A DNA stretch of 64,000 nt from assembly GCA_026874595.1 (NCBI GenBank), contig CM049312.1, forward strand, positions 47,991,429 through 48,055,428, given 5' to 3'. The stretch's first letter is position 1. The number at the start of each line of letters is the position of its first letter. Below, piece by piece: positions 6,779 to 63,230 of this stretch. The position numbers and the translations under genes were made by a program. This DNA is from Sipunculus nudus. Taxonomy: Eukaryota > Annelida > Sipuncula > Golfingiida > Sipunculidae. The notes under the pieces were generated by a model. It made no database searches. It saw only the letters and a list, made by a program, of their open reading frames with translations, and had not been told where the DNA came from.

Positions 6779-8266
6779 TAAATAAAAGCCATAAAACCAG
6801 GTACTTATGATTATTATTTAAATGGGTGAATTTTGTATATTCTGGATTCTCAACATCATTGTTTGGTGAAAACTGAATAAATACCAGACATGGTGCAAAT
6901 ACTTTGCAATTGTATTTAAATACGAATATGAATATGTACTCCATTATAAAATTTCTTGCATAAAGAATGGGAATTCAGGTAAAAATTAAAGCATATGAAT
7001 ACCAGTGCAAATACTTTCAAAATGTATTCATGAATGCATTCATGAATATATTCTTTAATATAATTGTATCCGCCAAAACGAAGTTTTGCGGATACTGTGT
7101 TTTTGACCGGGTTCCGCCGCCCTGTTCATTTCCGGAGAACTTCTCTGAGACTACTGGACAGATTTTTCCGAAACTTACACAAATTATCGGGTCACATGTG
7201 AACTGGTGCCTAACCAAGTGATCTTGACCTCTGACCTTTCCTCTCTGCCCAGCGTCTGTTTGTGCGTCTGTTTTCACACATAAACCCACATATCTCAGGA
7301 ACGGTTTGACCAATCAGGAGTTTTTTACACAAATCTAGCCCTGGGATAGCTTTATAACATACACAAAAATGATGGCGCCACCTGCAGCCATTTTTGCACA
7401 GCGTCCATCTGTTTGTCTGCCTTAGGTTAAAATCACTCATATCTCTGCAGTGGTTTGACTAAATTACCTGAAATTCGACATGCTTATACATCCTGCATAG
7501 CTTTCTTGATTTTATGACAGGTGGCGCCACCTACATTCAAGTTCACGCTGCAGACATTAATGCTTATATCTCCGGACTTGTTTGACCAATCAGGAAAAAA
7601 AATTTACACAAATGTAGCCCTTGCATATCTTTATAACATACACAAAAATGATGGCGCCACCTGCAGCCATTTTTGCACAGCATCCATCTGTTTGTCTGCT
7701 GTGGGATATATTCAATCATATCTCTGCAGTGGTTTGACTTTTCCACATGAAATTTTGCATGTGTATACATCTTGGATAGTTTCTCGTTCAAATAACAGGT
7801 GGCGCCACCTACAATCATGTTTATGTGATGTGTGTTTCCCCTTGCCACTCAATCCATGCCTCACTTCACCCGTCCTTCTCTGATTTTGGCGGATACATGT
7901 AGTCGCTTGTGGACTACCTGTATTCTAGTTTTAATAATCATTTCAGCTATATTTCATTTTTAAAAATCATACGATTCTCTTATTATTTTTTATAAAAATT
8001 ATATTTGGGACAATATTTGTAATTTTTTTTTAATAAATTGGTAAACTCTTATATTATATGTTCTGCTTATAAGTTATATGGCCAAGTCAAAATCTGTGTG
8101 ACAATAGTACTCCATTTGTTAATAAAATAAATGAAATCAATCCTCTTCCCTGTATCCAAAGGTACTATCAAAATCATAGATAAGCTAAACAACAACAACT
8201 CATAATACAGCTTATATTTATTACCACACAAAACCAGCATGTGCCTCATTTCTAAATTATATTTTT
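6779..8266 (+). repeat. Right flank of the C-type locus, with a B element inside
   Basis: 6779-7065 and 7933-8262 align with 33931-34200 and 34201-34540, the continuation of the C element. A B element interrupts at 7066. The paralogue goes on to a C 3' end (34553-34586), but here the match stops at 8262, where a D element begins, so the C terminus is missing or displaced. No coding sequence is recognised. Confidence 0.7.
7066..7932 (+). mobile_element. Family B element, complete, 0.87 kb
   Basis: The 5' end is a hairpin, GTATCCGCCAAAAC-GAA-GTTTTGCGGATAC. The 3' part carries the inverted copy GATTTTGGCGGATAC followed by the hairpin GTAGTC...GACTAC and the terminus TATTCTAGTTTT. The interior has tandem units with GGTGGCGCCACC (7520-7531 and 7800-7811). 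The paralogue at 34193-34215 lacks this segment, and the junction lies in a T-run. No protein is encoded. Subterminal inverted repeats plus a 3' hairpin fit a non-autonomous Helentron-type element; no transposition protein was seen to prove it. Confidence 0.85.
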
Positions 8267-8690
8267 ATGCCCCCGCCACAAAGTGGCCGGGGCATATAGT
8301 TTTACCCATGTCCGTCATTCCGTCATTCCGAAATCAAACAGTTGTACAGACTTTTTTTTGCAGTGCCTGAAGATATTGGCCTGAATTTTGGTGTGTGGAC
8401 AGATAATGACCAGTTACAGATCGAGTTCGCGTTTCGTCCTGGTTGACCTACTTTTGACTGTTTAAGGCTCCTAAACTTTGAAAATTTCATGAAAAATAGA
8501 AATTTTCATAACAAATACACATGTACGGACTTTTTTTCGCAATGCCTGCAGATATTGGCCTGATTTTTGATGTGTTGGTAGATAATGACCAGATATAGAT
8601 CAAGTTCACATTTCGTCCAAGTTGACCTACTTTTGACCATTAAACGGCTCCTTAACTTAGAAACTTTCATGAAAAATAGAAATTTTCCTT
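8267..8690 (+). mobile_element. Family D element fragment (ATGCCCCCGCC end)
   Basis: It starts with a near-perfect hairpin: ATGCCCCCGCCAC, AAA, GTGGCCGGGGCAT. The interior is two copies of a unit of about 180 bp (GACTTTTTTTNGCANTGCCTG at about 8348 and 8528, both followed by GATATTGGCCTGA). The 3' end of the family is not seen; at about 8690 the text changes to C-type sequence. Confidence 0.6.
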
Positions 8691-10830: not shown

Positions 10831-12748
10831 TTATTAAAAATTTATAAACCTGTAAATAAAAAAATGATTCAGATAAAAACTTCTTAATGGAAAAAGTGGA
10901 TGTGCTTTAAAAAATAGGATTATATATAAACTTAAATGCATTATTCCCTTGAAAGTGAAATAAAGGTATTAGTCCATTCTGTCCACTTGCCTGTCCATCT
11001 GTAAATTTTCATATGCATCACAGTATCTCAAAACTTTTACTGTTTTTTTTCATGACAGTCTTGTCAGAGTATTAGTTTGCAATCATATATTTAGAACTTT
11101 ACTGTAGCCAAGTAGGAGGGCCCCTTTTCTCTAAGCTTTTCTAGGCTCATATAAATGAAAAACATTACAATAGAATATTTCTACATCCACCTTCGTGCTG
11201 CCCTCACTTTTCCCTTCTCCGAACCCCATCCAAAAGTCAGCCTCAGTAAGCAAGAACAAGATGAATCAGATATATTCATACTTTAATATTTTGTATAACT
11301 ATTCGTCCATAGGTACCTATGTACATGCCAGAAATTATGTCAATATTGTGTAATATGTAGACATAGTGAGCATCACAATAATGTACCTTGTCAAGACTTA
11401 AGAGATATTGTGTCATACAGTCACAAATTCATAAATCACTTCATCAGCATAGTTAATCATAACATCATATCTGTCAAATTGAAAGCTTGCAGACTACCAT
11501 ACACTTTAGATTCTTCAACAAATAGCCTTATCATCATTCTACTACTGCTTATTACTGCTGTCATTGCATTCATATTTGCTCAAATATATCACAATTTTCA
11601 ACCCCTCCTAAATAAATAAAAAATAAACCACTATATTTTACTTTATTAATCCATCAGTCAGGTAATTTCATTTATCATTTACTCACACATTACATTACAT
11701 TCCTTTATAATAGCCCAACATGTCCATGATATTCATAAGCTTTATCGACTCAATATAGTATCACAGTGGAGAAACATTTATAGTCCAATCACAATCAGCT
11801 GAGCACCGTGACCCATGGGTCCCTTGTTTTTCATATATTCCTGATTTCTTTTTTAGCAAACCTGTGAGCTTATGCGTTGGTGTGGCGTCGTCCGTCGTCT
11901 GTCGTCTGTACGTTAACCCATACTATCTTGAAAACGGCAAGAGTTAGCATAAAAAAATTTTCTGCAAAAAATTAGTCATTTAAAAAACTCTATCGGATTT
12001 TGCTTATTTTTGGCTATCTTCATTTTCTTAGATTTTATAGAGAAAAAGCTAAAGAGCTTTAACAATCTTCTTCTCCGAAACTGTTCAGCCAAATTGTCCA
12101 ATATTTCACAGAAATGATCCCTGGAACAATCTCTATTAAGTTTGTTAGAATGGTTTAAGTTCGGTGATTTTTTGGCCGAGTTACAGCTAGTTGTAACTTA
12201 GTCATCTGTCCAAAAAAGCATACTAAAATTACAATCTTAGAAACGGCTGGAGCTGTCATCACCAAATTTTATGCCAATGTTGGTCACACGAGTCATGTCT
12301 GAAATTGAGATATTGGTGGTGCCACCTTTATCGGCCTTTTTTGAACGGGGGTCATCAGTGGCCGTATCATACTGACAGCTACAAAAAACTTCTTCTCTGA
12401 AACCATTTGGCCAAATTGTTTAATATCGCACAAAAATGATCCTAGGGTAGTGCATTCTGAAGTTTGTTCAAATGGTCTCAGTTCAGTGACTTTTGACTGA
12501 GTTATGGGAAGCTGAATTTAGTCATATGCCATAACAGCCCATTTTAGCTCAGTGGCTACAAAGATCTTCTTCCCAAATACCACTGGGCCAAATTCTTAAA
12601 TTTCACACATTAATTATCCTTAGATGTTGATAATTCAAGTTTGTTCAAATGGTTTCGGTTCAGTGATTTTTGGTTGAGTTATTGGAAGCTGAACTTAGCC
12701 ATTTTGCTTTATTTTCCCATATGAGTTATAAACCTGCAAAACGTTTTT

Positions 12749-14600
12749 AGCTCAGCTGACTATTAGTCATCTGAGCTATAGTCGTGGTCCATTGTCCGTC
12801 CGTCTGTCCATCCGTCCGTCCGTCCGTAGATGTGGCACGTTTTGAAACCGTAAGACCTAGGAATCCAAAATTCAGCATAATGTTAGATGTCCCCAAGATC
12901 TCCTACCAAGCCGAAAATTGGGTCAATAGGACTTCGTTCCTACGAGATATTAAGGAAAAACCTCAATTTTTTATTAGAAATCTATTTTCACTCTCCAGGA
13001 CTGCCTAATATCAAAACCACTCATCTGGTTTTCTTCATATTTACCATAAATATTCCTCTATATAGTTTCTATGTACATGCCAGATATTAAGTCAGTATTA
13101 TATAATTTAAAAAAGTTATGGGCCCAAACATAATGGATATTGTAAAAAATCAGGAAAAATAATAACTCACTTAACATGAAAAATTTTGAAACTAGAGTCT
13201 ATTTTCTCAAGTATATAACTATGTTTAATTAAGATTCAATTGTTTACCCAAAATTAGATCTGAATTTTGTAAATTTTTTAAGTTATTAGCATAAAAAAAA
13301 AATCAGTACCTTAAATTTTGCCCTACTTTGACCATGGCACATTTTTTTCCTGTAAGCACCATTGATTTTATTTTCACAGCATGTAAACATAAATATTTAG
13401 TTTGTCTAAATCTGAAATTTGAAAATAAAAGCTTGAAAATTAAGCTAGTTATTCATTTTTTTTCTGTAGTCACTTGCTTTGATTACAGATGCAGGGTCCC
13501 ACTCCAGGTCACTGGAAGTCAGCTATGCCAGGGTTTCTGATTTGTTACAGTCACTGGGGGAGATCCCCTGCTGTGACAGGTGTACAGTTATTCCCATATC
13601 ACCACCCCAATCACCCCCCCCCCCCCAACCCAACCCACCAAGTGTTATGCAGTAATTGTTATTGTTTTCACTGTAATGCTGTTTCCACTCCGATATGCAA
13701 AAACTTTCCTTGAAAAAATAATTCAAGGTGTAATCCAGAAGATGCAATGTTGTGTAATGTAGCATTTTTAAAGAAATCAATTTTCTTTTAAATGATTTTA
13801 ACAAATATAAATGAACCAATCAGTATGCTTAAATTATTATAAAATATGAAGCACATTATGGATAAATAAAGACACAATTAAAAATTGTGAAATCTAAATC
13901 AAGTATTATTTTTAGATATTTATTGTTTTGCAGATTTAAAAGATATATTTTTGTGGTAAAAAATAAATAAACATTTGTATGCATGATGTGGTGTTATCTG
14001 ATAAGATTGAGATTTATGATGATGCAATTGAGAATTATGAATCAATTTTTATATTCAGATATATATTGTAAATTGGAAATGTATATAAACTTAAATTAGA
14101 AAATAATTGATGTGATAAAAAAACCAGGATTTAATATAAACATTTGTTCATTGTTTTCCTGCCTCAGCAGAATTTGAGATCAGGCTTTGTTTGCCCTGTT
14201 TTATGTTGTTAATTAGCTATATTTCAACTGTATACATTTCATAAAAAAAAATATATATTTAATAATATATATTATACAAAAAATAGATTCAATTGAACAA
14301 ATGTGTAAACTACTGAAATGTCAACAGTTAATCGAAAAACCAACTAATGATCATGGTAATAGTACAGATCATTTGTTCACAAACTGCTCACAAGCTTTAG
14401 TTTCAACATTAGGAAACACATGGTCAGGTCACAAAATATTTTTTGCAACAATTTCTTGCTCATCAATACAAACCAATCATATAAACCAACCATGGCCTTT
14501 ATTACCTCTTCCTCTTACACTTTATCTCCATTAGATATTATTTTAGATTTTTACCTTCAAGGTTAACATCAGCTGAGCACAGTGACCCATAGGTCCCTTG
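12749..14600 (+). mobile_element. Family C element nested in A, 1.85 kb
   Basis: The 5' end is AGCTCAGCTGACTATTAGTC followed by ATCTGAGCTA, an inverted pair. The 3' end is ATCAGCTGAGCACAGTGACC then CATAGGTCCCTTG. The uninterrupted text AAACCTGCAAAACGTTTTTT then GACTGAAGCCACTGAGGCC at 31030-31070 is the empty site. The interior contains an exon-like segment at 13489-13579 and a C-run at 13613. No transposition gene was found. Confidence 0.85.
13489..13579 (+). other. Exon-like 91-bp segment inside a C element (copy 2)
   Basis: Second copy of the segment at 8818-8908, with the same flanking TTGATTACAG and GACAG|GTGTAC. Both open frames stay open despite about four substitutions. The upstream pyrimidine-rich tract is also preserved. 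Carried coding DNA is one explanation; no protein match could be made. Confidence 0.35.
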
Positions 14601-15905
14601 TTTGATTGACACCACTGAGGCCAATTTGTTTAATATTTTACAAGAATAATCCCTTGAATAATTCTTATAATAATTGTCTTTTATGGTTCCAAAGAATGAT
14701 TTTGGATGAATAATAAAGATTGAATTGAGTCATTTTACCATATATGTTAGCTGTGTGAAGCAGATACATCTAGCCTAGAACCAGTTTATCAGCATCCGTT
14801 ACATCATGCTCCAGATATTTAGATTTCAGGTTATCTTTGGTTAATATTGACAAGAATTTTTTTTAAAAACTTTTAAAAAATGTAGATTTATGATTTTAGA
14901 TATTCCTCATGCCAGGCAATGTTTACAATCACAGGTATACGTTAACCCATACTATTTCGAAAATGAGTGGAGCTAGCATCATGAAATTTAATGCAAAAAA
15001 TTAGCCATCTGAAAGAAATTGGCATTTTCTTAGATTTTTTTGAGAAAAAGCTAAAAAACCTTTAAAAATCTTCTCCTCTGAAACAGTCAAGCCAATTTGT
15101 TCAATATTTCACAGAAATATTCTTTTATGCCATCTCTCTCACGTTTGTTCAAACGGTTCACGTTAGATGAATTTTGGCCGAATTACAGGAAGTTGAACCT
15201 AGTCATCTGTCTAAAAAGCATACTAAAATGACAATATCAGAAACGGCCAGAGTTATCATCACCAAATTTTATGCCAGTGCAAATGTTGATCACTCATATT
15301 TGAAGTTGCAGATTTTGATGTGCCACCTACATTGACCTGTTTTTTATGGGGAAAAACCTCATAATTTTAGCCTCTTTCAGCTTAAAATGTTTATGATAAA
15401 ACTGTCAAGTTGAATCGTTCAATTTTTCAAAAGAATTATCATAGGACATGGTTCTTTCAATCATACCAGAAAAACTTAATTGGTCTTATGGCCGTTATTA
15501 TGTCCAACTCAAACTGAGGACTGCAAAACTGTTCTTCTACAAAATTATTGTTTCAATTATAACTTCTGTTACATGGCACAAAAATTATTCTTAGGTGGCC
15601 TTTGTTCAAGTTTACTTGAATGATTTCTGGTAGAATTATTGGACCTTTAACAATGAAAGAACTGAATCTTTTATTAATCTAGATATTTTGAATAAAAAAA
15701 AGTTTATGAATATTTTAGCTTGAAAAAAAAGCATTTTAGCCAAAGTCTTTCAGTATGTGTAAACAGATTTGCCAACAGGCCAAGATCGTGTCTGTATATT
15801 TAAATAGGTTAAGAAACTGCCAACTGCTTCAGATTTGGCAATAGATCAAGAGTTCATTCAGTGCAGCCAGATATAGGTCAAGAGTTCAGTCAGTGCAGCC
15901 AAGCA

Positions 15906-16012
15906 CAAGGCATGTGATCCCCTCATGGGTGACATGTGAACACCTCATGGGCAGCATGTGATCACCTCATGGGCAGCATGTGATCATCTCATGGGTGTCA
16001 TGCCCCTCAGGG
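15906..16012 (+). repeat. 21-bp tandem repeat in family A
   Basis: Units of the type CATGTGATCACCTCATGGGC recur about every 21 bp, ending near GGGTGTCATGCCCCTCAGGG. The same array is present in the A copies at about 20885, 35652 and 61166 with different unit numbers. Confidence 0.85.
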
Positions 16013-16622
16013 CTGCATGTGGAGCCAATCTATTTATAGCTTTGGCAGACTGCCAACTGTATCAGATTAGGCAACAGGTCAAGAGTTCACTCAGTGCAGC
16101 CAGGTACAGGTCAAAAGTTCACCCAGTCTAGCCAGGTGCAGGTCATGAGTTCACTCAGTATAGTAGCCTGAGCTAGCAAATTTCTCACAGTTCACTCGGG
16201 GCAACTGCCTTTCTCACCTAAGCCTGGTCAGCCCCTTGCATCAGACTTAAGGTAAGTTTGATGTATTGGCCTAATATTCTGACCTGTCTATTTGTCTTTG
16301 ATGGGTTTCTTGTTCACAAGACAGGTGTCACCACCTACAATGACATTTGCACAGTGTGTGACTTTTGTGCCTGCTTATTTCTATTGAAGAATTTGATATA
16401 TCATCCTGAAATTGGGCATATTTATACCTATCGTATTTTAATTATCGTATACTTGTCGTATACAAGACTGGTGGTGCCACCTACAATAATTTTTTGCACA
16501 GTGTGTGTCCCTGCTTATTTCTCAGGAGGTGTTTGATATATCAGTCTGAACTTGGGCATATGTATATATCTGTGATAGCTTTGTTGTATACAAGACTGGT
16601 GGTGCCAGCTACAATCATTTTT

Positions 16623-17874
16623 AGCTCAGCTGACTGTAAGTCAACTGAGGTATAGGAATGGCGCTTTGTCCGTCGTCCGTCTGGATGTTCGTCCCTCCAT
16701 TAGCAGGGCACAAATCGTAACAGCTGGTCCTAGAAACTTCTAAGTGAACATCCAGGGAGGTCAATTAAAAATTTCCTTGGAAACCTGAAATTAGGTCACT
16801 GCAACCTTTTTCCTTCGAGCTATGGGGTTTGAAAGTACCCCCCAGAATAGTAAAAAATTTGATACAAAACCTCCAATATCTTGATAATTAATGCATGGTT
16901 TGTCATGAATCTTGCCTTGAATTTTGACCTTGACTAGTTTTGTCAGTTCCTGAAACGTGGTGGCACCACCTATATTTTTTCCTAGTTTAACAAATATTTT
17001 TCTATTTATTTACTATAAAATGACAATAATCATGTCAGTTTCTCAACTGTCATTACATCTGGTGTCCTAAAACAGGTGTGTTTATTGATCACAAGTGGAT
17101 GCCCTATACTAATCACCCTGTCTGTCAGTCTGTCTGTTTGTATGTCTGTCTGTCTGTCAATCCGTCCATCCACACAAATTAGTTTCCAGATGATAACTCC
17201 AGTTAAGTTTGATATAAATGGCCAACCACTTAAGAAAGAACCATGTTGGTTTTGCGGTCCGACGGTGAAAGGTCAAGGTCACAGGACCCATTTCTTAAAA
17301 AGGAATGTGTATGCATTTGAAGCCAAACTTTTCATCGCAAACCTATCACCTTCAAGATATTGCTGACCTACCACTACGGGAAGATTCTGTTTGATTTTGG
17401 GTCATAGGTCAAAGGTCAAGGTCACAGGGCCCATCCATTGACAAATTAGTTTATGGATGATAATTCTGCTTTAGAATGACAGACTGGCTTCAAACTTGAT
17501 TTGATAATGACCAACCACATATGTAAATTCATTTTGATTTTCAGGGTCCAGCGATCTAAGTTGAAGGTCACAGAAGCCACATCTTTAAAAAGATTGTGGA
17601 TGCACTGTAAATCAAACTTTTCATCCTGAACTTTCCAATGGCTTACTTGCCCAAAGTGAGAAAACCTGTAGAGGTTATCTGGTCAGAAGTCAAGGTCACT
17701 TTTTAAAAGATTGTTACAATAATCCTTATGCTGCAAGTTCAAGGATATTAAGTTCTTAGATTTTTTGGGTACAAGGTCATTGGTTAAGGTCACAGGATTG
17801 TCATTTTGAAAAATTTCTTTCGAAATATCCTTATAGACAAATTCAACTGAGCGTTAAGACCCATGTGTCCCTAG
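16623..17874 (+). mobile_element. Family C element (variant ending CCCTAG) nested in A
   Basis: It starts AGCTCAGCTGACTGTAAGTC and ends ACTGAGCGTTAAGACCCATG then TGTCCCTAG. The uninterrupted A text GCTACAATCATTTTGTGTTG at 36465-36485 is the empty site. The interior has blocks ending AAGGTCAAGGTCACAGG, including a triple AGGTCA at 17406-17424. An almost identical element sits at the same A position at 61791-63054. Confidence 0.85.
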
Positions 17875-18050
17875 TTGTGTTGTGTGCACCCATGCCAAAA
17901 TTTCAGCAGTGATGTTTGTGTAATTGTTTCTTATTCAAAATGTTTAGTACCTGCATTGTTCATATACATGAGAAGTCATGGTCCAGCATTGAAGCATTAT
18001 ACCTGGTGTATTTTCCAATGCACAGGTTCGCATTAGGCCTGTAGGCCTTG

Positions 18051-19371: not shown

Positions 19372-20137
<766 letters not shown>

Positions 20138-21793
20138 TGAATCATGTATAAAATTGGGCATGTCTCAGCAGATTTTCTACCACCCCAGTTTAGTAAATAA
20201 ACCATTTCCCTTGCCAGGGTCATTAAAAATTCATCCAGAGAGAGCTGATTGACATCAGCCATGTAAATATGTCTAGGGTATCTTGTGGCCAAAAGTTCTC
20301 CAGAATTTTTAGCGAACCTGTGAGCTTATGCGATGTTGTGGCGTCGTCTGTCTTCTGCCGTCCATCGTCTGTCTGTAAACCCATATTATCATGAAAACGG
20401 CAAGAGCTACCATCCCCAGATTTTATGCAATAATCTGTCACATATCAAATATTGTGGGTTTCAGCTTATTTTTTGCTATCTCCATTTACTTAGATTTTAT
20501 AGGGAAAAAGCTGAAAAACCTTTAAAAAGTCTTCTTCTTGTAACAGTCCAGCCAAATTGTTCAATATTTTACAAAAATGATCCCAGAGGCAAGCCCTCTC
20601 AAGTTTGTTCAAATGGTTTGCATTTGATGAATTTTAGTGGTGTTAAATGAATTTGAACAGTCATTTGGCCTATTAAGCATACTGACAGAGTAATCTCAGA
20701 AATGACATTTTAGCCAAAGTCTTTCAGTATGTGTAAACAGATTTACCAACAGCCCAAGATTATGTCTGTACCTTTAAATAGGTTGAGAAACTGCCAACTG
20801 TTTCAGATTTGGCAACAGATCAAGAGTTCATTCAGTGCTGCCAGATATAGGTCAAGAGTTCAATCAGTGCAGCCAAGCACAAGGCATGTGATCACCTCAT
20901 GGGTGACATGTGTACACCTCATGAGCACCATTAGATCACCTCATGGGTGTCATGTCCCTCAGGGCTGCATGTGGAGCCAATCTGTGAGCTACAGATGCAA
21001 TGGTGTGGCTACTATTTCAGATTTGGCAACAGGCCAAAGGTCAGTCTGGATCTATATATAGCTTTGGCAGACTGCCAACTGTATGTGATTAGGCAACAGG
21101 TCAATAGTTCAATCAGTGCAGCCAGGTATAGGTCAGGAGTTCACTCAGTGCAGTAGCTGTATTCTATTTATAGCGTTTGCAGACTGCCCACTGCATCAGA
21201 TTTGGCACGAAAGTTCAGCCTGGATCTATTTATAGCTTTGGCAGACTGCCAACTGTGTGAGATTATGCAACAGGTCAAGAGTTCACTCAGTGCAGCCAGG
21301 TACAGGTCAAAAGTTCACTCAGTCTAGCCAGGTGCAGGTCATGAGTTCAATCAGTGTAGTAGACTGAGCCTGCAAATTTGTCAGAGTTCACTCGGGGCAA
21401 CTGCCTTTCTCACCTAAGACTGGTCAGCCCCATGCATCAGACTCCAGGTAAGTTTGATGTATGGGCCTGATATTTTGTCTACTTGTCTTTGATGGCTTTC
21501 TTGTTTACAAGACAGGTGTCGCCACCTACAATGACTTTTGCACAGTGTATGCTCCTGCTTATTTCTACAGTGGAATGTCATATATCAGCCTGAAATTGGG
21601 CATGTTTATATATATCGAAAAGCTTTGTCATATACAAGACTGATGGTGCCACCTACAATAATTTTTGCACAGTGTGTGTCCCTGATTATTTCTAAGGAGG
21701 GGTTTGATATATCAGTCTGAAATTAGGCAGAAGTATATATCTCTGATAGCTTTGTTGAATACAAGACTGGTGGTGCCAGTTACTACCATTTTT

Positions 21794-24700
21794 AGCTCAG
21801 CTGACTGTAAGTCATCTGAGCTATAGGGATCACCTTTTGTCCGTCGTCTGTCCGGCCGTCCGGGCGTCTGTCCGTTAACAGGGCACAAATCGTAACCGCT
21901 AGAACTGGAATCTTCTTACTTGACATCCTGGGAGGTCTATGGAAATTCTCCTTGTAAACCTGAAATTAGGTCACTGTGACCTATATTTGCGAACTATGGG
22001 GTTCCGAAGTACCCCCCAGAATAATGGAAAATTTGATACAAAAGCTCAAGTATCTGAACAACTAATGCATTGATTATCATGATTTTTTGCATGGATATTG
22101 ATCATGGAGTGTTTCATCAGTTTCTGCAGACTGGTGGCGCCACCTGTATTTTTCAGATTTTTACCAATATTTTTCTCTATTTTTGAGACCTCTTAAGATG
22201 GGGCCATCTGTTAACAGGGCACAAATCGTAACAACTACACCTAGAATCTTCTCTCTTGACATGCAGGGAGGCCCATAAAAAGTCTCTTTGGAAACCTGAA
22301 ATAAGGTCTCTGTTACTTATAACCTTTGAGCTATGGGGCTCCGAAGTACCCCCCAGAATAATGGAAAATTTGATACAAAAGCTCAAGTATCTAAACAACT
22401 ATTGCAGTGATCACCATGATTCTTTGCATGGATATTGATCATGGAATGTGTCATCAGTTTCTGCAGTATGGTGGCGCCACCTGTATTTTTTTTATTTTTA
22501 TGAATTTTTTTCTGTATTTTTGAGACCTCATAAGATGCAGTCATCTGTTAACATGGCACAAAACGTAACAACTGGACCTAGAATCTTCTCTCTTGACATG
22601 CTGAGGGGCCCATGAAAAGTCTTCTTAAAAACTTGAAATTAGGTCTCTGTTACCCATAACCTCTGAGCTATGGGGCTCCGAAGTACCCCCCAGAAAAATG
22701 GAAAATTTGATACAAAAGCTCAAGTATCTGAACAACTAATGCATTGATCATCATGATTTTTTGCATGGATATTGATCATGGAGTGTTTCATCAGTTTTGG
22801 CAGACTGGTGGCGCCACCTGTATTTTTTCGATTTTTACCAATATTTTTCTCTATTTTTGAGACCTCTTAAGATGCAGCCATCTGTTAACAGGGCACAAAT
22901 CGTAACGACTACACCTAGAATCTTCTCTCTTGACATGCAGGGAGGCCCATAAATAGTCTCTTTGGAAACCTGAAATTAGGTCTCTGTTACCCATAACCTT
23001 TGAGCTATGGGGCTCCGAAGTACCCCCCAGAATAATGGAAAATTTGATACAAAAGCTCAAGTATCTAAACAACTATTGCAGTGATCACCATGATTCTTTG
23101 CATGGATATTGATCATGGAATGTGTCATCAGTTTCTGCAGTATGGTGGCGCCACCTGTATTTTTTTTATTTTTACGAATTTTTTTCTGTATTTTTGAGAC
23201 CTCATAAGATGCGGTCATCTGTTAACATGGCACAAAACGTAACAACTGGACCTAGAATCTTCTCTCTTGACATGCTGAGGGGCCCATGAAAAGTCTTCTT
23301 AAAAACTTGAAATTAGGTCTCTGTTACCCATAACCTCTGAGCTATGGGGCTCCGAAGTACCCCCCAGAAAAATGGAAAATTTGATACAAAAGCTCAAGTA
23401 TCTGAACAATTATTATATTGATCACCATGATTCTTTGCATGGATATTGATCATGAAATGTTTCATCAGTTTCTGCATTCTGGTGGCGCCACCTGTATTTT
23501 TTCAATTTTTAGCTCAGCTGACTGAAAGTCATCTGAGCTATAGGGATCACCTTTTGTCCGTCGTCCGTCCGGCCATCCAGCCGACTGTCCATTAACAGGG
23601 CACAAATCATAACCACTGAACCTGAAATCTTCTCACTTGACATCATGGAAGGTCAATTTAAATTCTCCTTGGAAACCTGAAATTAGGTCACTGTGACCTA
23701 TATCCTCTGAGCTATGGGGCTCTCACGTACCCTAAGAATAATGCAAAATTTGATACAATAACTAATGCATTGATCACCATGATTGTCCACAACTAATGCA
23801 TTTATCACCATGATTCTTTGCATGGATATTGATCATGATGTTTCATCAGTTTCTGCAGACTGGTGGCGCCACATGTATTTTTTCGATTTTTTAAAGTTAT
23901 TTTTCTCTATTTTTGAAACCTTTTAAGATTTGGTCATCTGTTAACAGGGCACAAATCATATCAACTGGACCTAGAATTTTCTGTCATGACATGCAAGGAC
24001 GGTCATAAAAAGTCTATATGGAAACCTGATATAAGGTCTCTGTTACTGATATCCTTTCAGCTATGAGACTCGGAAGTTCCTCCCAGAATAATGCAAAATT
24101 TGATACAATAACTAATGCATTGATCACCATGATTGTCCACATTTGTATTGATAATGGCTTGTTTCATCAGTTTCTGTAGACTGGTGGTGCCACCTGTATT
24201 TTGATTTTTTAAGAATTTTTTTCTTGATTTTTGAGACCTTTAAACATTTGGTCATCTGTTAACAGGCCACAAATCATAATGACTTGACCTAGAATCTTCT
24301 TTCTTAACATGCAGGGAGGTCCATGAAACATCTTGGAAACCTGAAATTAGGTCTCTGTTACCCATATCCTTCATGCTCTGGGGCTCCGAAGTACTCCCCA
24401 GAATAAAGATTTGGTCATCTGTTAACAGAGCACAAATTATAATGACTTGACCTAGAATCTCCTTTCTTGATATGCTGGGAGGCCCCTGAAAAGTCTCCTT
24501 GTGCACCTGAAATTACATCTCTGTTACCCATATCCTTCATCCTATGCGGCTTTGAAATACCCCCCAGATTAAACATTTGGTCATCTGTTAACAGGGCACA
24601 AATCATAATAACTGGACCTAGAATTTTATTTTTTGACATGCTGGGAGACCCCTGAAAAGTCATCTTGTAAACCTTGAAAATAGCTGTCTGTTACCCATAT

Positions 24701-24860
24701 CCTTCATGCTACAGAGCTCCATAGTACCCCAATGAATATTGGATGATTTTATACAAAAGGTCAAGTTTGGAAAAAGTATTTCATTCAAATTTGACATTCA
24801 GATGATAAAATTACTAATGTCTTCCTGGTCAGCTGAGCGTCATGACCCCTGGGTCACTTG
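21794..24860 (+). mobile_element. Family C element with amplified interior, 3.07 kb
   Basis: The 5' end is AGCTCAGCTGACTGTAAGTC and the 3' end is CAGCTGAGCGTCATGACCCC then TGGGTCACTTG. The interior is an array of units of about 335 bp, each with a CATCTGTTAACAGGGCACAA-type start and a GGTGGCGCCACCTGTATTTT-type end. A second C 5' end (AGCTCAGCTGACTGAAAGTC) begins at 23511 in a T-run, so a second C copy inserted into the first and now shares its 3' end. The A empty site is intact at 36465. Confidence 0.82.
22186..23515 (+). repeat. Higher-order tandem repeat, two dimers of about 675 bp
   Basis: Units start at GAGACCTC near 22186, 22521, 22858 and 23197. Units 1 and 3 are almost identical (CTACACCTAGAATCTTCTCT), as are 2 and 4 (CTGGACCTAGAATCTTCTCT, AAAACGTAAC), while 1 and 2 differ more. 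This shows a dimer duplicated as a block. Confidence 0.85.
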
Positions 24861-25036
24861 TAGTGTTGTGTGCACCCATGCCAGAATTTCAGCAGTGATG
24901 TTTGTGTAATTGTTTCTTATTCAAAATGTTTAGTACTTGCATTGTTCATATACATGAGAAGTAATGGTAAAGCATTGAAGCATTACACCTGGTGTAATTC
25001 CCAATGCACAGGTTTGCACTAGGCCTGTAGGCCTTT

Positions 25037-44053: not shown

Positions 44054-44935
44054 TGAGCAGTTTTACGCAGATTTTTCCTTGGAGAAAATCCACAGGGTAT
44101 TGAGACTGCAGCATTTTTGCAAAGACTTTGACACAGTTCTTCCACAGTTTCCACACTTTTCTGCAGAAATTTAGTGAACCTGTGAGCTTATGCGATGGTG
44201 TGGGGTTGTCCGGTGTCTGTACATTAACCCATACTACCAAACGGCAAGAGTTAGCATCACAAAATATTTTGCAAAAAATTCGTCATCTAAAAATCTCTAT
44301 AGGATTTTGCTTATTTTTCGGCTAACTGCATTTTCCTAGATTTTGTAGGGAAAAAGCTAAAAAAGCTTTAAAAATCTTCTTCTCCGAAACTTTCCAGCCA
44401 AATTGTTCATTATTTCACAGAAATGATCCCTGGAACAATCTCTCTCAAGTTTGTTTGAATGGTTCCAGTTTGGAGATTTTTGGCCAAGTTACAGGAGGTT
44501 GAACTTAGTCATCTGTCCAAAAAAGCACACTAAAATTAAAATCTCAAAAACGGCTGGAGCTATAATGACCAAATTTTATACCTATGTTTGTCACATATGT
44601 CATATCTGATTTTGAGGTATTGGTGGCGCCACCTACATTGATGTGTTTTTACAAGCGAAAACGTAATTTTAAACTCTTCTAGCTTACACACTGATTTTTG
44701 ATGAAACTGTTCAGCTGATTGGTTTAAACTTTACATGAATTATTCTATGGTAGGGTTCTGCCAGTTTTATAAGAATAGATTGGGTAAATACAGTTTTAAA
44801 AAAGCATTGTAGCTAATTGAAAAAGGCTTTCTGTATTTGAAAACAGATTTGACTTCATACTGAGTTTCAGCAGCCAAGTACAAACAGGTGGGGTCCAGAC
44901 ATCACCATGGCAACTGACCTGGCTCTGGGGGGGTT

Positions 44936-44996
44936 GTCTAGACAATGTGTCTAGACGTCTAGACACAGCGTCTAGACGTCTGGACACATTGTTTAG
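44936..44996. repeat. Long hairpin built from TCTAGACGTCTAGA
   Basis: Arms of about 28 bases (ending near TCTAGACG on each side) pair almost perfectly. The motif GTCTAGACGTCTAGAC is itself palindromic. A shorter version lies at 49954-49982 in the sister element. It may represent a 5' hairpin end of this B variant. Confidence 0.85.
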
Positions 44997-46409
44997 AAGC
45001 AGAATTTCCAGATTATTGGAACTGTATCTTTCAACTGTTTCAAAAAACTTGGTTTGCATTTTAAGCGAATTGGTTTATCATCAGGTCACATGTGAACTGC
45101 TCATTTTTGGTTGACCTCTGACCTTTCCTTGCTGCCCAGCGTCCATTTGTGCGTCTGTTTCCACACATAAACCCACATATCTTGGGAACCGTTTGACCGA
45201 TCAGGCTAAAAATTTTGCACAAATGTAGCCCTTTGATAGCTTTATAACATGCACTAAAAATGGTGGCGCCACCTGCAACCATTTTTGCACAGCGTCCATC
45301 TGTTCATCTGCCTTGGGTTAAAATCACTCATATCTCTGCAGTGACTTGACTAATTCACCTGAAATTTGGCATGCGTATACATCCTGGATAGCTTTTCTGA
45401 TTTTATGACAGGTGGCGCCACCTACATTCACATTTACACTGCAGACATCCAAGCTCATATCTCGGGAACCGTTTGACCGATTGGGCCAAAATTTTGCATG
45501 TGTATAGATACCTTACATAGCTCTTCATCATAGGCAAAACTGGTGGCGCCAACTGCAACCATTAATGCACAGCGTCCATCTGTTCATCTGCCTTTGGATA
45601 AAATCACTCATATCTCAGCAGTGGTTTGACTTATCCACCTGAAATTTTGCAGGTTTATACATCCTGGACAGCTTTCTCGATTTTATGACAGGTGGCGCCA
45701 CCTACATTCACATTTACTCTGCAGACATCCAAGCTCATATCTCGGGAACCGTTTGACTGATTAGGCTTAAATTTTGCATGTGTATAGATCTGACATAGCT
45801 CTTCATCATAGGCAAAACTGGTGACGCCACCTGCAACCATTTATGCACAGCGTCCATCTGTTCATCTGCCTTTGGATAAAATCACTCATATCTCAGCAGT
45901 GGTTTGATTTATCCACCTGAAATTTTGCAGGTTTATACATCCTGGACAGCTTTCTCGATTTTATGACAGGTGGCGCCACCTACATTCACGTTTACTCTGC
46001 AGACATCCAAGCTCATATCTCGGGAACTGTTTGACCGATTGGGCCAAAATTTTGTTTGTGTATAGATCTCACATAGCTCTTCATCATAGACAAAACTGGT
46101 GGTGCCACCTGCAACTGCTTATGCACAGCATCAATCTGTTGATCTGCCTTGGGATAAAATCACTCATATCTCAGCAATGGTTTGACTTATCCACCTGAAA
46201 TTTTGCAGGTTTATACATCCTGGACAATTTTCTTGATTATATGACAGGTGGCACCACCTACATTCACGTTTAAGCTGCAGACATCCAATCTAATATGCAA
46301 CACACCACGCTCTATTCCCCTTGCCACTTAATCCATGCCTCACTTCACCCGTCCCACTCTGATTTCTGCGGATACACATAGTGGCTTGTTGACTACCCAT
46401 ATTCTGGTT
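44936..46409 (+). mobile_element. Family B variant, 5' end replaced, with 280-bp array
   Basis: The standard GTATCCGCC start is absent; the TCTAGACG hairpin and a stretch shared with 49954-50090 precede it. The interior repeats with a period of about 280 bp (AAAATCACTCATATCTC at 45320, 45600, 45880 and 46158), and each unit has two half-units with GGTGGCGCCACC or near copies (45411, 45691, 45968). The 3' end is TGCGGATACACATAGTGGCT then TATTCTGG, a one-base variant of the usual CTAG. Confidence 0.78.
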
Positions 46410-47252
46410 TTAAAATGTCCTAGTCCGAAACTTGCAGTTCAGAAACGTCCATTTTGCTGAAATCATAATGACTAAGGTAGATATGCAGGACTTAGGAGGA
46501 TCAATATTAAATTTTAAAAATAAACCTCCATTCATACTCCTAAACTTTGCACAGGTTCGCATTAGGCCTGTAGGCCTTGTATATATATTTGTTGTATCCC
46601 CAGACAAAGTCGGGATACTTGTGGTTTCACGACGGTCCCGCCGCCGCCGCAGAAAAACCTTGTGAGCGGGATAACTCAAAAAATATTTCACTGATCTTTT
46701 TCAAACTTTACATTTGTATATATATATGGGTAAGGGGGTGAAGCCTATTTAAAATGGGGTCTTGGCCTATGCTAGGAGAGTGACCTTGACCTAGAATAGG
46801 TCCATTTTTGCTGAAAATAACACAAATTCTTAAATATCTCAAGTAAGCTTGCATGGACTGGTCCAAAAATCAAGGTGACCGAAGATCTTGGATAGCCTTG
46901 TGATATACCGGAAACTGGTGGCGCCATCTATTATCCTATTCTTGTTTTTACACCTTTTAATACCACAATAATTGCCACTTGACAGTACTGTAAGCATTAT
47001 AAGGAAAAAAACTAATGGACAGATTTCTTTCATATTATGCACATGTAGAGAGATGGGTTATGGGATGAGGTCTATTTACATTTGGGTCATGACCTTTACC
47101 ATGAGACTGGCCTTGACCTTTAATGTGTCCATATTTGGTGAAAATCACACATCTCTTATGATATTTTCAGTGTTGATAGCCATATGGATTTCAAGTGTGA
47201 CTTATGTATGGCCCACCACTAAAGTAAGAACCCTATAGGTTCAAGTATCATG

Positions 47253-57772: not shown

Positions 57773-58541
57773 GATTTTTACCTTCAAGTTCAACTTCAGC
57801 TGAGCACAGTGACCCATGGGTCCCTTGTTTAATTCAACCACCAGGGGTCGCTGCATTTTAACCACTTCAAAAAATCATTTTTGTTCCATAGCTTAAAAAT
57901 TATGAATAATGTCACAACTTTAATTTCTGGATCTGAAACTAGGGTAAAGGGCTTATTTTTTGGCAACTTGACTGATTCTGCAGTTACCATGGTGACCTAC
58001 TTAAGAATAGAATAATTGGCATTTTTATGTCAGCCTTTGTAACTTTGTGATTTTAAAGCTATAAAGGTTTAGTTTTTTTTGTATCAGGCAGCATTAATTT
58101 AATGTTTCACTTAATTTGTGAACATATTCTGACTAGATGTATATTTCCAGTAAAAATAACTGACACCTGATTTGGACTTCTGATGTTTTATTTTCAGATA
58201 TATCAAGCTTTAATATCATGCATATATTGCATGTCTTCACAAGATTCCCCCATGCACAGGTGGGATACAAATATTGTATTTCATTGAACAGACGCCGGGC
58301 CTTAAATAGTCGCCTGCCTTATTTAGTCGCTGGGGCAAAATAGTGTTCCAGAAAAATAAATGCCAGCCTTAAATAGACGCCCGGTGTTGTTCAGAGGCCT
58401 GGTTTCAGAGTAGTTTCCATGTTTGTCTTTTCCCGTCACTATAATTGGTGTATTTACCAGTCAAATTGACAGGAGATTGTTTTAGCTTCGGTTTGTGTTT
58501 GTGTTGATAATATGTTTAATTCTTCTATAATCTTTCTCTTT
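57773..58541 (+). other. C 3' end, then a mostly non-repetitive stretch
   Basis: The C terminus CAGCTGAGCACAGTGACCCA then TGGGTCCCTTG ends at about 57828. A CTCF-like ACCACCAGGGGTCGCTGC follows at 57837. At 58290-58410 two inverted blocks (CCGGGCCTTAAATAGTCGCC, CCTTAAATAGACGCCCGG) suggest the end of another repeat family. No gene is seen. Confidence 0.55.
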
Positions 58542-61500
58542 AGCGAACCTGTGAGCTTATGCAATGGTGTGGCATCGTCCATCTGCCGTCGTCCATCGTC
58601 TGTATGTTAACCCATACTATCTTGAAAATGGCAGGAGCTAGCATCACCAAATTTTTGCAAATAATCAGTCATCTAAAAAACTCTATTGGATTTAGCTTAT
58701 TTTTTGGTTAACTGCATTTTCTTAGATTTTATAGGGAAAAAGCTTTAAATATCTTCTTCTCCGAAACTGTTCAGCCAAATTGTCCAATATTTCACAGAAA
58801 TGATTCCTGGAACAATTGTTCGAATGGTTTATGTTTGGTGAATTTTGACGAAGTTACAGGAAGTTGAACTTAGTCATCTGTCCAAAAAAGCATACTAAAA
58901 TTACAATCTCAGAAACGGCTGGAGCTATCATCACAAAATTTTATGCCAATGTTGGTCACATGAGTCATATCTGAAATTGAGGTATTGGTGGTGCCACCTG
59001 CATCAGCCTTTTTTGTACGGGGGTCATCAGTGCCCATATCATACTTATGGCTACAAAACACTTCTTCTCTGAAACCATATGGCTAAATTGTTTAATATTG
59101 CACAGAAATGATCCTAGGGTAGTGCTTTCTGAAGTTTGTTAAAATGGTCTCAGTTCAGTGACTTTTGGCTGCGTTAAGGGAAGCTGAATTTAGTCATATG
59201 CCATAACAGCCCATTTTAGCTCAGTGGCTACAAAGATCTTCTTCTCAAAAACCACTGGGCCAAATTCTTAAATCTCACACATTAATTATCCTTAGATGAT
59301 GATAATTCAAGTTTGTTCAAATGGTTTTGGTTCAGTGATTTTGGCTGAGTTCTGGTAAGCTCAACTAAGCCATTTTGCTTTATTTTCCCATATGAGTTAT
59401 AAACCTGCAAAACATTTTTTGACTGACGCCACTGAGGCCAATTTGTTTAATATTTTACAAGAATAATCCCCTGAATAATTCTTATAATAATTGTCTTTTA
59501 TGGTTCCAAATAATGAAAATAGGCTGAATTTTAAAGATTGAATTGAGTCATTTTACCATATATGTTAGCTGCGTGAAGCAGATACCTCTAGCCTGGCACC
59601 AGTTTATCAGCATCCCTTACATCATGCCTCTTGACCTTTAGATTTCAGGTTATCTGTGGTTTATATTGACAAGAATGTTTTTTAAAAGCTTTTAACTTAA
59701 ATCAAGATTTTGCCATCAGTGACATGTATCTGTTTGATAATTTTGCATTCATTGTGCTATTTCAAAAACTACTGGAGCTAGCATCATGAAATTTAATGCA
59801 AAAAATTAGCCATCTGAAAAAAATTTGCATTTTCTTAGATTTTATTGAGAAAAAGCTAAAAAAACCTTTAAAAATCTTCTCCTATGAAATGGTCAAGCCA
59901 ATTTGTTCAATATTTCACAGAAATAGTCTTTTATACCATCTCTCTCAAGTTTGTTCAAATGGTTCGAGTTCTGTGAATTTTGGCCGAATTACAGGAAGTT
60001 GAACCTAGTCATCTGTCCAAAAAAGCATACTAAAATGACAATCTCAGAAACGGCCAGAGCTATCATCACCAATTTTTATGCCAGTGTTGGTCACATGAGT
60101 CATATATGAAATTCAGGTATTGAGGTGCCACCTGCATTGACCTTTTTTTGTACAGGGGTCATTGGTCATCTGTATGTCAACCCATAATTTCTAAGGAATT
60201 GCAGGAGCTACCATCCCCAGATTTTATGCAATTATCTGTCACTTATCAAATGTTGTGGGATTCAGCTTATGTTTTTTGCTATCTGCATTTACTTAGATTT
60301 TATAGGGGAAAAGCTGAAAAACCTTTAAAAGTCTTCTTGTAAACGGTCCAGCCAAATTGTTCAATATTTTACAGAAATGATCCGAGAGGCAAGCACTCTC
60401 AAGTTTGTTCCAATGGTTTGCATTTGATGAATTTTAGTGGAGTTAAATGAATATGAACGGTCATTTGGCCAAGTAAGCATACTGACATAGTTATCTCAGA
60501 AATGACAGAAGCTAGCATTACCAAGTATTGTGCAATTGTTGGTCACATGACTCATATTTGAAGTTCCAGATTTTGATGTGCCACCTACATTGACCTGTTT
60601 ATTTATGGGCAAAAACCTCATAATTTTAGCCTCTCTCAGCTTAAAATGTTTATGATGAAACTGTCAAGTTGGATCGTTCAATTATTCAAAAGAATTACCG
60701 TAGGACATGGTTCTTTCAATAATATCAGAAAAACTTAAGTTGGTCTTATGGCCATTATTATGTCAAACTCAAACTGAGGACTGCAAAACTGTTCTTCTAA
60801 AAAATTATTGTTTTAATTATAACTTCTGTTACATGGCACAAAAATTATTCTTAGGTGGCCTTTGTTCAAGTTTACTTAATGATTTTTGGCAGAATTATTG
60901 GACCTTTAACAATGAAAGAACTGAATCTTTTATTATTCTAGATATTTTGATAAAAAGTTTATGAATATTTTAGCTTAAAAAAAATCATTTTAGCCAAAGT
61001 CTTTCAGTATGTGTAAACAGATTTGCCAACAGGCCAAGATTGTGTCTGTATATTCACATAAGTTAAGAAACTGCCAACTGTTTCAGATTTGGCAGTAGAT
61101 CAAGAGTTCATTCAGTACAGCCAGATATAGGTCAAGAGTTCAGTCAGTGCAGCCAAGCACAAGGCATGTGATCCCCTAATAGGTGGCATGTGAACACCTC
61201 ATGGGCACCATGTGATCACCTAATGGGTGTCATGCCCCTCATGGCTGCATGTGGAGCCAATCTATTTATAGCTTTGGCAGACTGCCAACTGTATTAGATT
61301 AGGCAACAGGTCAGGAGTTCACTCAGTGCAGCCAGGTACAGGTCAAAAGTTCACCGAGTCTCACTCAGGGCAACTGCCTTTCTCACCTAAGCGTGGTCAG
61401 CCCCATGCATCAGACTTAAGGTAAGTTTGATGTATTGGCCAAATATTTTGACCTGTCTATGTGTCTTTGATGGGTTTCTCGTTCACAAGACAGGTGTCAC

Positions 61501-63230
61501 CACCTACAATGACATTTGCACAATGTGTGAATTTTGTGCCTGCTTATTTCTATAGAGGAATTTGATATTTCATCCTGAAATTGGGCATATTTAGACCTAT
61601 CGTATTCTAATTATCGTATACTTGTCGTATACAAGACTGGTGGTGCCACCCACAATAATTTTTTGCACAGTGTGTGTCCCTGCTTATTTCTCAGGAGGCG
61701 TTTGATATATCAGTCTGAACTTGGGCATATGTATATATCTCTGAAACCTTTTTGTATACAAGACTGGTGGTGCCAGCTTCAATCATTTTTAGCTCAGCTG
61801 ACTGTAAGTCAACTGAGGTATAGGAATGGCCCTTTGTCCCTCGTCCGTCTAGACGTCCGGCTGTCCGTTAGCAGGGCACAAATCATAACAGCTGGTCCTA
61901 GATACTTCTAAGTGAACACTCAGGGAGGTCAATTAAAAATTTCCTTGGAAACCTGAAATTAGGTCACTGCGACCTTTTTCCTTCGAGTTATGGGGCTTGA
62001 AAGTACCCTCCAGAATAGTAAAAAATTTGATACAAATTCTCCAGTATCTTGATAATTAATGCATGGTTTGTCATGAATTTTGCCTTGAATATTGACCATG
62101 ACTAGTTTTGTCAGTTCCTGAAACGTGGTGGTTTTCTTATTTTAACAAATATTTTTCTATTTATTTTTATTATAAAATGACAACAATCATGTCAGTTTCT
62201 CAGCTGTCATTACATCTGGTGTCCCAAAACATGTGTGTTTATTGATCACAAGTGGATGCCCTATACTAATCAACCTGTCTGTCAGTCTGTCTGTTTGTAT
62301 GTCTGTCTTGTCTGTCAACCCGTCCATCCACACAAATTAGTTTCCAGATGATAACTCCAGTTAAGTTTGATATATTGGTTTCAAACTTAACTTATAAATG
62401 GCCCACCACTTAAGAAAGAACCATGTTGATTTTGCGGTCCAACGGTGAAAGGTCAAGGTCACAGGACCCATTTCTTAAAAAGGAATGTGTATGCATTAGA
62501 AGCCAAACTTTTCATCGCAAACCTATCACCTTCAAGATATTGCTGACCTACCACTACGGGAAGATTCTGTTTGATTTTGGGTCATAGGTCAAAGGTCAAG
62601 GTCACAGGGCCCATCCATTGACAAATTAGTTTATGGATGATAATTCTGCTTTAGAATGACAGACTGGCTTCAAACTTGATTTGATAATGACCAACCACAT
62701 ATGTAAATTCATTTTGATTTTCAGGGTCCAGCGATCTAAGTTGAAGGTCACAGAAGCCACATCTTTAAAAAGATTGTGGATGCACTGTAAATCAAACTTT
62801 TCATCCTGAACTTTCCAATGGCTTACTTGCCCAAAGTGAGGAAACCTGGAGAGGTTATCTGGTCATAAGTCAAGGTCACTTTTTAAAAGATTGTTACAAT
62901 AATCCTTATGCTGCAAGTTCAAGGATATTAAGTTCTTAGATTTTTTGGTTACAAGGTCATTGGTTAAGGTCACAGGATTGTCATTTTGAAAAATTTCTTT
63001 CGAAATATCCTTATAGACAAATTCAACTGAGCGTTGAGACCCATGGGTCCCTAGTTGTGTTGTGTGCACCCATGCCAAAATTTCAGCAGTGATGTTTGTG
63101 TAATTGTTTCTTATTCAAAATGTTTAGTACCTGCATTGTTCATATACATGAGAAGTCATGGTCCAGCATTGAAGCATTATACCTGGTGTATTTCCCAATG
63201 CACAGGTTCGCATTAGGCCTGTAGGCCTTG
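58542..63230 (+). mobile_element. Family A element, full length, with a C insertion (4.7 kb)
   Basis: It starts AGCGAACCTGTGAGCTTATG and ends GCACAGGTTCGCATTAGGCC then TGTAGGCCTTG. Removing the C at 61791-63054 leaves a native A of about 3.4 kb, the longest single copy here. The 21-bp array (about 61166) and the modules of GGTCAAGAGTTC type are present. It is the close relative of 11855-18050 and shares its C insertion. There is no open frame long enough for a Rep/helicase, so it is non-autonomous. Confidence 0.85.
61791..63054 (+). mobile_element. Family C element nested in A, twin of 16623-17874
   Basis: It starts AGCTCAGCTGACTGTAAGTC and ends ACTGAGCGTTGAGACCCATG then GGTCCCTAG. From about 62440 it is nearly identical to 17260-17874, with few substitutions. 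It includes the triple AGGTCA at 62586-62604. Confidence 0.87.

Follow-up and report, generated by a model that had tools for sequence, protein, structure and literature searches.

A 64-kb stretch of the genome of Sipunculus nudus (assembly GCA_026874595.1; contig CM049312.1, here C7, positions 47991429-48055428), referred to below as the window, consists largely of interspersed elements nested in one another. Five families of these, A to E, are very probably (about 93%) Helentron-associated interspersed elements (HINEs), a non-autonomous type of rolling-circle transposon that relies for its movement on Helentron proteins combining Rep, a PIF1-type helicase and a C-terminal endonuclease. The anatomy of the elements, their copy number and their duplication-free insertion into T-tracts were observed directly. 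For family B, the 3' end and an endonuclease fossil additionally link the elements to a Rep-helicase-endonuclease element elsewhere in the genome, which comprises 1.43 Gb in 153 contigs. The families were rebuilt from the sequence, so their lettering may differ from that of the initial annotation.

The movement of such elements can be pictured as follows. Rep would nick the 5' end beside a T-tract, where the subterminal repeat, joined by a 5' hairpin in all families but C, would mark the start, and the helicase would then peel off one strand. The subterminal repeat and hairpin of the 3' end would act as the stop signal after CTAG or CTTG. The single strand would finally be joined into a T-tract elsewhere, so that no target bases would be duplicated. 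We infer these biochemical steps, and likewise the use of the same or sister enzymes by A, C, D and E.

The families are defined by their ends. Family A starts with GTATCCGCCAAAACGAAGTTTTGCGGATAC and closes with GCGGATACAYGTAGTCGCTTGTNGACTACCYRTATTCTAG, followed by TTTT. Family B starts with AGCTCAGCTGACTNTAAGTCATCTGAGCT (in short form AGCTCAGCTGACT...AGTCATCTGAGCT) and closes with CAGCTGAGCGCCGTGACCCATGGGTCCCTTG and TTT, with variants present. Family C runs from AGCGAACCTGTGAGCTTATG to GCACAGGTTCGCATTAGGCCTGTAGGCCTTG, followed by TTT. The 3' end of D, taken from a full copy on contig C3, is CGGGGGCATTCGTGTCGTTCCGACACATCTAG followed by TTC, i.e., CGGGGGCAT, a hairpin and CTAG. The first bases of A to D are GT, AG, AG and AT, respectively, and CTTG ends occur in B and C. 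The plan common to A–D comprises subterminal inverted repeats, a 3' hairpin, CTAG or CTTG and then T. Both ends were verified for these four families and the 5' hairpin alone for E; a candidate 3' partner of E at 48725 was rejected, being single-copy in the genome and no element end. The end sequences are unrelated, as the initial annotation had stated: the longest string common to the ends of any two families is 4–6 bases. On typed consensus strings of the families, the longest perfect match between the 5' end and the reversed 3' end is 13 bases in A, 9 in B, 11 in C and 9 in D. The repeats of B and D are thus shorter than 11 bases when only perfect matches are counted, against a HINE norm of about 11–15 bp.

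All five families are abundant. Exact patterns were counted genome-wide, and the same pattern read backwards served as the control. There are 24,613 copies of the B 5' end, 5,434 of the A 5' end, 3,932 of the C 3' end, 2,500 of the D 5' end and 695 of the E 5' hairpin, and every reversed pattern gave 0. In the window, the end motifs were mapped on both strands with mismatches allowed. Three A copies have both ends, and there are four further plus-strand A 3' ends. Family B is represented by seven 5' ends and fourteen 3' ends, which pair up in five copies; for C the counts are nine and seven, respectively, and D shows one 5' end. With the exception of one A copy, all mapped A–D ends lie on the plus strand. 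Sites with a hairpin, CTAG or CTTG and T number 23 in the window, whereas 4.0 were expected and none of 30 simulated sequences had more than 8; at least four of them belong to a 148-bp satellite as repeat units, and a few others are chance occurrences. When inverted 5'/3' pairs beside T-runs were scanned for blindly, 11 were found, which is not above chance (mean 5.9, maximum 13 in 20 simulations), so the evidence for the families is the repetition of their ends. Tandem arrays are found in A (278-bp units), B (337 and 166 bp), C (22 and 32 bp) and D (repeated units), and one B copy carries a GTCC microsatellite about 46 bp from its start.

The ends were folded as single-stranded DNA, and their stability was compared with that of 200 shuffles. 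The 5' ends of B and D share an identical dot-bracket structure (7-bp stem, 1x1 mismatch, 5-bp stem and 3-base loop), and that of A is near-identical (8-bp stem, bulge, 5-bp stem and 3-base loop). The z-scores are -6.3 for A, -4.3 for B and -4.8 for D, with 0 of 200 shuffles equally stable in each case. The E hairpin has stems of 7 and 3 bp separated by a 2-base bulge, and a loop of 3 bases; it is weaker (z -2.3; 7/200 shuffles equally stable). The 3' hairpins are shorter than the 5' ones, and only that of A stands out from its shuffles (z -3.3). The common plan of at least five families proposed in the initial annotation applies to A–D at both ends, whereas E contributes only a 5' hairpin and C has none at its 5' end.

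The following elements and element parts were mapped in the window.

7066..7928, plus strand: complete A HINE of 863 bp inside B-type sequence, with both end motifs; empty paralogue at 34118-34295 within the B copy 31981-34586.
39061..39689, plus strand: complete A HINE of 629 bp in C-type sequence, at a T-tract also used by three B copies (end motifs, flank alignment); its right-flank match covers about 16 bases and then diverges.
41844..43300, minus strand: A HINE with 278-bp tandem units, the sole minus-strand element listed here (end motifs, tandem array).
358..397, plus strand: A 3' end (end motif), the 5' end lying outside the window.
27951-27990, 46368-46407 and 51358-51397, plus strand: A 3' ends without a located 5' end (end motif).
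12749..14600, plus strand: complete B HINE nested in C (end motifs), with a 5' hairpin, a GTCC microsatellite at 12794-12827, an endonuclease fossil and a 3' hairpin; empty paralogues at 30959-31134, 59331-59507 and 37621-37798, the last with more changes.
14292..14486, plus strand: fossil of a Helentron endonuclease C-terminus in that B copy (tblastn, 65 aa, 63% identity, E 3e-21).
16623..17874, plus strand: B HINE, CTAG-ending variant, nested in C (end motifs); empty paralogues at 36389-36565 and 18839-19015.
21794..24860, plus strand: B HINE with 337-bp and 166-bp arrays and a second B 5' end at 23511 (ends, arrays), in the same C insertion site as 16623..17874.
31981..34586, plus strand: complete B HINE of 2606 bp (end motifs); empty paralogue at 60059-60235.
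61791..63054, plus strand: B HINE, CTAG-ending variant, nested in C (end motifs, empty-site test).
20311..25036, plus strand: C HINE with 22-bp and 32-bp units and B nested in it (both ends; the 3' end has 3 mismatches and ends in CTTT).
26379..28182, plus strand: C HINE with nested A sequence, the A 5' end of which was not found (C ends).
44173..46579, plus strand: C HINE with nested A sequence, the A 3' end being at 46407 in a CTGG variant (C ends).
58542..63230, plus strand: C HINE with B nested in it (C ends).
11855..18050, plus strand: C HINE with two nested B copies (ends; pairing deduced from the nesting order).
8267..8687, plus strand: D HINE, 5' hairpin and first ~420 bp, with the 3' end missing in the window (end motif, C3 alignment); 88% identical to positions 1-421 of the full 1708-bp D copy on C3.
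46594..46618, plus strand: E 5' hairpin; 3' end not found (folding, genome count).
36389..36565, plus strand: C copy without insertion, the empty site for three B insertions (flank-joining alignments).

Only one B 3' end (24860) follows the two B 5' ends at 21794 and 23511. Head-to-tail rolling-circle copies lacking the inner 3' end would show this arrangement, and so would a B element inserted in another B.

For the target sites, 5' and 3' ends were provisionally paired in 23 ways, many of which were wrong combinations, and the flanks of each pairing were joined and searched for in the window. An uninterrupted paralogue was found for six distinct insertions, and a seventh match was a wrong pairing of one of these. 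In the aligned sites, the elements lie inside T-tracts or T-rich stretches with zero target duplication, and in nearly all alignments the filled sites hold two to three extra T or A/T bases compared with the empty ones. An empty site of D, seen when a C7 copy of a Helentron is compared with the C3 copy, is likewise a T-tract without duplication. The claim of duplication-free insertion in T-runs thus holds at the six window sites and at D, where target duplications, named beforehand as refuting the Helentron assignment, were looked for and not found. One T-tract of C (CAATCATTTT) holds an A copy as well as three B copies that represent two or more variants; it is either a hot site or, in part, the product of a single insertion that was copied along with its host.

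These sites bear on a reading in which the families are cut-and-paste miniature inverted-repeat transposable elements (MITEs) and the inverted repeats are true terminal repeats. The related Pearl elements of bivalves were initially described as MITEs, according to the sections consulted of a study of the Pacific oyster (PMC7492417). The ends seen here, however, are asymmetric, with an extra hairpin downstream of the 3' repeat; the empty sites contradict this origin, there being no duplication at the six insertions or at D, and B contains the fossil of a Helentron endonuclease. Such an origin is hardly credible.

The enzymes were sought in the window and in the genome. When six pieces of Helentron proteins were compared with the window by tblastn, no Rep/helicase match was obtained and the one significant match was the endonuclease fossil, in agreement with the initial annotation, which saw no autonomous copy here. 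A genome search with Helitron_like_N gave 143 matches, and 30 loci were retrieved for motif reading and clustering. Their Rep motif reads RGSPH in 26 loci, RGLPH in one (L002), RGWPH in one and neither in two. Serine between G and P marks Helentrons and leucine marks Helitrons, as described in the part of PMC4067079 consulted. Sequence comparison sorted the 30 loci into a cluster of 23, a pair (L028/L030) and five singles; an apparent division between two groups (1 and 2) of Helentron loci was discarded as an artefact of one-strand comparison, since both strands together gave the one cluster of 23. Two members of the large cluster, L031 and L032, have long open frames encoding, in order, DUF6570, OTU, Helitron_like_N, PIF1 and Exo_endo_phos, the domain composition of a Helentron. 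These frames exceed 2,100 codons (C13:66173500-66183499 and C8:80137000-80146999). Some loci are nearly identical (L011, L012 and L020 are ~99% identical over 3.5 kb, and L003 and L004 are 99.7% identical), which suggests recent spread or duplication.

The presence of RGLPH in L002 indicates that canonical Helitrons probably also exist in this genome. This locus, one of the 30, and the CTAG ends of A and D, which fit CTRR, are the points in favor of the families being moved by canonical Helitrons (A^T target, 5'-TC, CTRR-3') or by Helitron2, which has no endonuclease. Canonical Helitrons lack both subterminal inverted repeats and an endonuclease, which agrees with PMC4067079. The present elements have subterminal inverted repeats, their 5' ends are not TC, their targets are T-tracts and not A^T, and B and C mostly end in CTTG. 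For B, this explanation is already contradicted by the C-terminal endonuclease of its partner element, and overall we regard it as very improbable.

The assignment to Helentrons is most direct for B. On C3, a B partner element was found that spans L028, with Helitron_like_N, and L045, with PIF1 (E 4.6e-23) followed by Herpes_Helicase and Exo_endo_phos. Its endonuclease matches Exo_endo_phos (E 1.6e-6) and Exo_endo_phos_2 (E 6.4e-8), and RGSPH was read in both L028 and L030. The B 3' end motif, in the CTAG form and without a mismatch, lies about 150 bp past the endonuclease frame. A copy on C7 has the B 3' motif in the CTTG form, followed by TTT. The homology between the C3 and C7 copies stops at this motif (L044:2194 and L045:2602), after 96.9% identity over the preceding 2.2 kb. 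When the protein of L045:1245-2420 was used as the query, the endonuclease fossil was found 114 bp before the 3' end of the B copy 12749-14600. From the shared 3' end and the fossil, it follows that this B copy is a deletion descendant of a Rep-PIF1-endonuclease Helentron; these comparisons, made at the sequence level, also bear out the initial view of Helentron-type non-autonomous elements. The enzymes of the large partner element probably move B. In the genome search with the endonuclease, 7,706 first-look candidates were obtained, 105 of these were scored and 108 matches were listed. Among these 108, 26 are 3'-terminal only; they start at or after residue 198 of 392, reach at least residue 366 and show 74–92% identity (a manual count that excludes second pieces of longer copies), as expected for derivatives cut at different points. 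The right flank of the C3 element (L045:2601-2778) resembles internal B sequence and carries a second B 3' end at 2748-2778. The C3 Helentron thus appears to sit inside a B-type HINE.

Several observations weigh against the assignment of all five families to Helentrons. The initial annotation proposed a genome search for Rep/helicase elements bearing the family ends, which located the B 3' end on a Helentron but not the B 5' end. The C3 and C7 copies are 97% alike for as far as the C3 stretch extends, which is ~23.7 kb upstream of the 3' end, and the C7 copy, read to ~25 kb upstream, showed no 5' end of B. The B partner is either longer than ~25 kb or part of a larger shared segment; two C7 copies that are alike far upstream are consistent with a shared duplicated segment. 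The C7 copies carry stops in the endonuclease part, and present activity is not claimed. None of the A, C, D or E ends could be assigned to a Rep/helicase element, the reading of flanks past 1.5 kb being confined to two lineages and incomplete there. Additionally, the 5' end of C folds no better than chance (z -0.01), and the 3' stems of a B copy (z -1.3), C (-0.9) and D (-1.9) do not exceed their shuffles. A different enzyme class, searched for only in the flanks of the two Helentron lineages, was not reported there.

The ends of the large-cluster Helentrons were also sought. When L012 was followed for ~30 kb on C13, no clear end was seen on either side; on the 5' side, its likeness to a C11 copy stops within 148-bp satellite units. 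Three parts of the window (52847-54923, which is the 148-bp array, 51591-51988 and 57838-57997) are ~68–82% alike to the sequence 3' of the Helentron coding part in L036/L037. By this likeness, the 148-bp satellite is common to the window and the surroundings of the large Helentrons.

Whether one machinery serves all families, reading structure more than sequence, is a separate question. This proposal of the initial annotation is unproven. It is favored by the 5' hairpins of A, B and D, which have near-equal geometry and unrelated letters. Against it stand C, which has no such hairpin, the link of only B to a particular Helentron, and the existence of at least two well-separated Helentron lineages (L028/L030 share ~31% identity in Rep and 28% in the endonuclease with the large cluster). 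Alternatively, each family may have its own Helentron lineage, with no enzyme reading several types of ends and with the hairpin shape inherited or convergent. The division of the Rep loci into a cluster, the B-partner pair and singles agrees with this, as do the match of the B 3' end to one lineage and the further endonuclease copies, which are only 48–55% identical to that of the B partner. The similar hairpins would also suit one tolerant enzyme, and we lean slightly towards separate lineages. The argument for structure over sequence draws on the matching 5' hairpins of families A, B and D, and the lack of one in C tells against a general rule.

The plan of the elements equals that of known HINEs, and the present set is a further case of a known type. 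The comparisons below draw on the parts of the cited papers that were consulted. The Cg_HINE elements of the Pacific oyster (PMC7492417) likewise have a 5' subterminal inverted repeat with a complementary inverted repeat, a GTCY/GTCC-type microsatellite, central satellite-like tandem repeats, and a 3' subterminal inverted repeat with a palindrome. They also insert without duplication at T-rich (TT) sites, and a single genome contains many families of them that differ in their ends (PMC7492417). The likeness is one of plan and not of end or satellite sequences, and C differs in having no 5' inverted repeat. In that account, Cg_HINEs could not be related to any autonomous Helentron, and the part consulted of an oyster genome study gives no evidence of autonomous elements (PMC7992393), whereas B is tied to one. 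This putative autonomous partner, recognized by sequence, is the new aspect of the present set. The HINE/DINE-1 elements and Helentrons of mites and flies (PMC4067079) are similar in that the former are deletion derivatives of Rep/helicase/endonuclease elements, the Rep motif has serine, insertion occurs in T-tracts and the number of T at the ends varies. The B partner differs from these Helentrons in being very large or lying in a larger shared segment, its 5' end being beyond ~25 kb. Pearl elements, as described in PMC7492417, are likewise short, have ~160-bp central repeats and were re-classified as non-autonomous Helentrons; here, the likeness is to the description. The canonical Helitron Helraiser (PMC5876387) shares the 3' hairpin stop, the replicative transfer of one strand, the absence of duplication and, with A and D, the CTAG end, but it has an A^T target and 5'-TC. 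HINEs carry satellite-like repeats across invertebrate genomes. The tie between B and a Helentron allows a defined enzyme to meet a defined substrate in a test, and the five types of ends permit asking whether one enzyme reads hairpin shape or sequence.

The elements also agree in orientation with their neighbors. For each of the markers A, B, B-internal, C and D, the first 100 listed places were used, all on contig C1 and within 0.096–24 Mb. From 0.096 to 1.15 Mb, 93 of the 94 listed ends lie on the minus strand (B 59/60, A 14/14, C 14/14 and D 6/6). Beyond 2.65 Mb, cross-family pairs (A, B-internal, C and D) were counted. The same strand was shared by 8/9 pairs at 0–3 kb, 39/48 at 3–10 kb, 53/59 at 10–20 kb and 80/100 at 20–40 kb (172/207 for 3–40 kb pooled), then by 64/88 at 40–60 kb, 121/210 at 60–100 kb and 249/436 at 100–200 kb. 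Beyond 200 kb, the agreement is roughly random (426/828 at 200–400 kb and 1,144/2,324 at 400–1,000 kb). The random-sign null has a mean of 0.50 throughout and understates the spread, since one element can enter several pairs and nested copies are interdependent. Within single families, 60 of 99 A neighbors are alike (p 0.016), and A shows no effect beyond 2.65 Mb (42/78, p 0.33). Beyond that point, B-internal gives 53/79 (p 0.001), falling to 39/65 (p 0.07) and 26/49 (p 0.37) after thinning to 30 and 100 kb, and C gives 55/78 (p 0.0003), or 33/52 (p 0.03) after thinning to 100 kb. The agreement is thus local, up to about 60–100 kb, and extends over ~1 Mb at the start of C1. A repeat intended as the control, CTGGATTCTCAACATCATTGTTTGG, proved to be B-type sequence, often located ~2 kb away from one of the listed 5' ends of B, and was kept as the B-internal marker; consequently, the orientation result rests on HINE markers, without a control from another transposon class.

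Such polarity would fit nesting in oriented hosts, transcription or the direction of replication forks. Same-strand runs may arise when most elements land in older ones at hot sites that have an orientation; islands would then grow with one polarity, and neither replication nor transcription would be needed. In the window, the B and A elements nested in C do point the same way as their host, one T-tract having been used repeatedly, and T-runs outnumber A-runs at lengths of at least 4 (758 vs. 616) and at least 8 (18 vs. 10). However, different families still agree in 73% of pairs at 40–60 kb, and T- and A-runs are balanced at lengths of at least 5 (253 vs. 248) and at least 6 (98 vs. 97), so the supply of T-tracts alone hardly sets the direction. 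We give nesting a little under an even chance. An unlikely, more speculative proposal is that the host polarizes Helentron insertion regionally, most plausibly by fork direction acting through single-stranded T-tracts of the lagging template, in which case HINE orientation would be a fossil record of fork direction. For the bacterial IS200/IS605 elements, insertion set by fork direction is described as established in the part of PMC5371812 consulted. A literature search of titles and abstract openings, with few subscription journals among them, gave no work on Helitron or Helentron orientation relative to fork direction. If replication causes the agreement, HINEs could be read as markers of replication direction in a non-model animal.

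Outside the elements, a plus-strand DUF4042 exon at 19970-20098 (E 1.5e-9) provides the host-gene context; because of this exon, the window is probably at least partly intronic. We take DUF4042 to be a domain of HEATR6-like proteins. The HINEs of the window are mostly sense-oriented relative to this exon, the single one identified there. An Rfam scan of the window at gathering scores gave 0 matches. Finally, a transposase-like open frame with DDE_1 (E 2.7e-25) at 4789-5850 belongs to a cut-and-paste transposon, presumably of the pogo/Tigger type.

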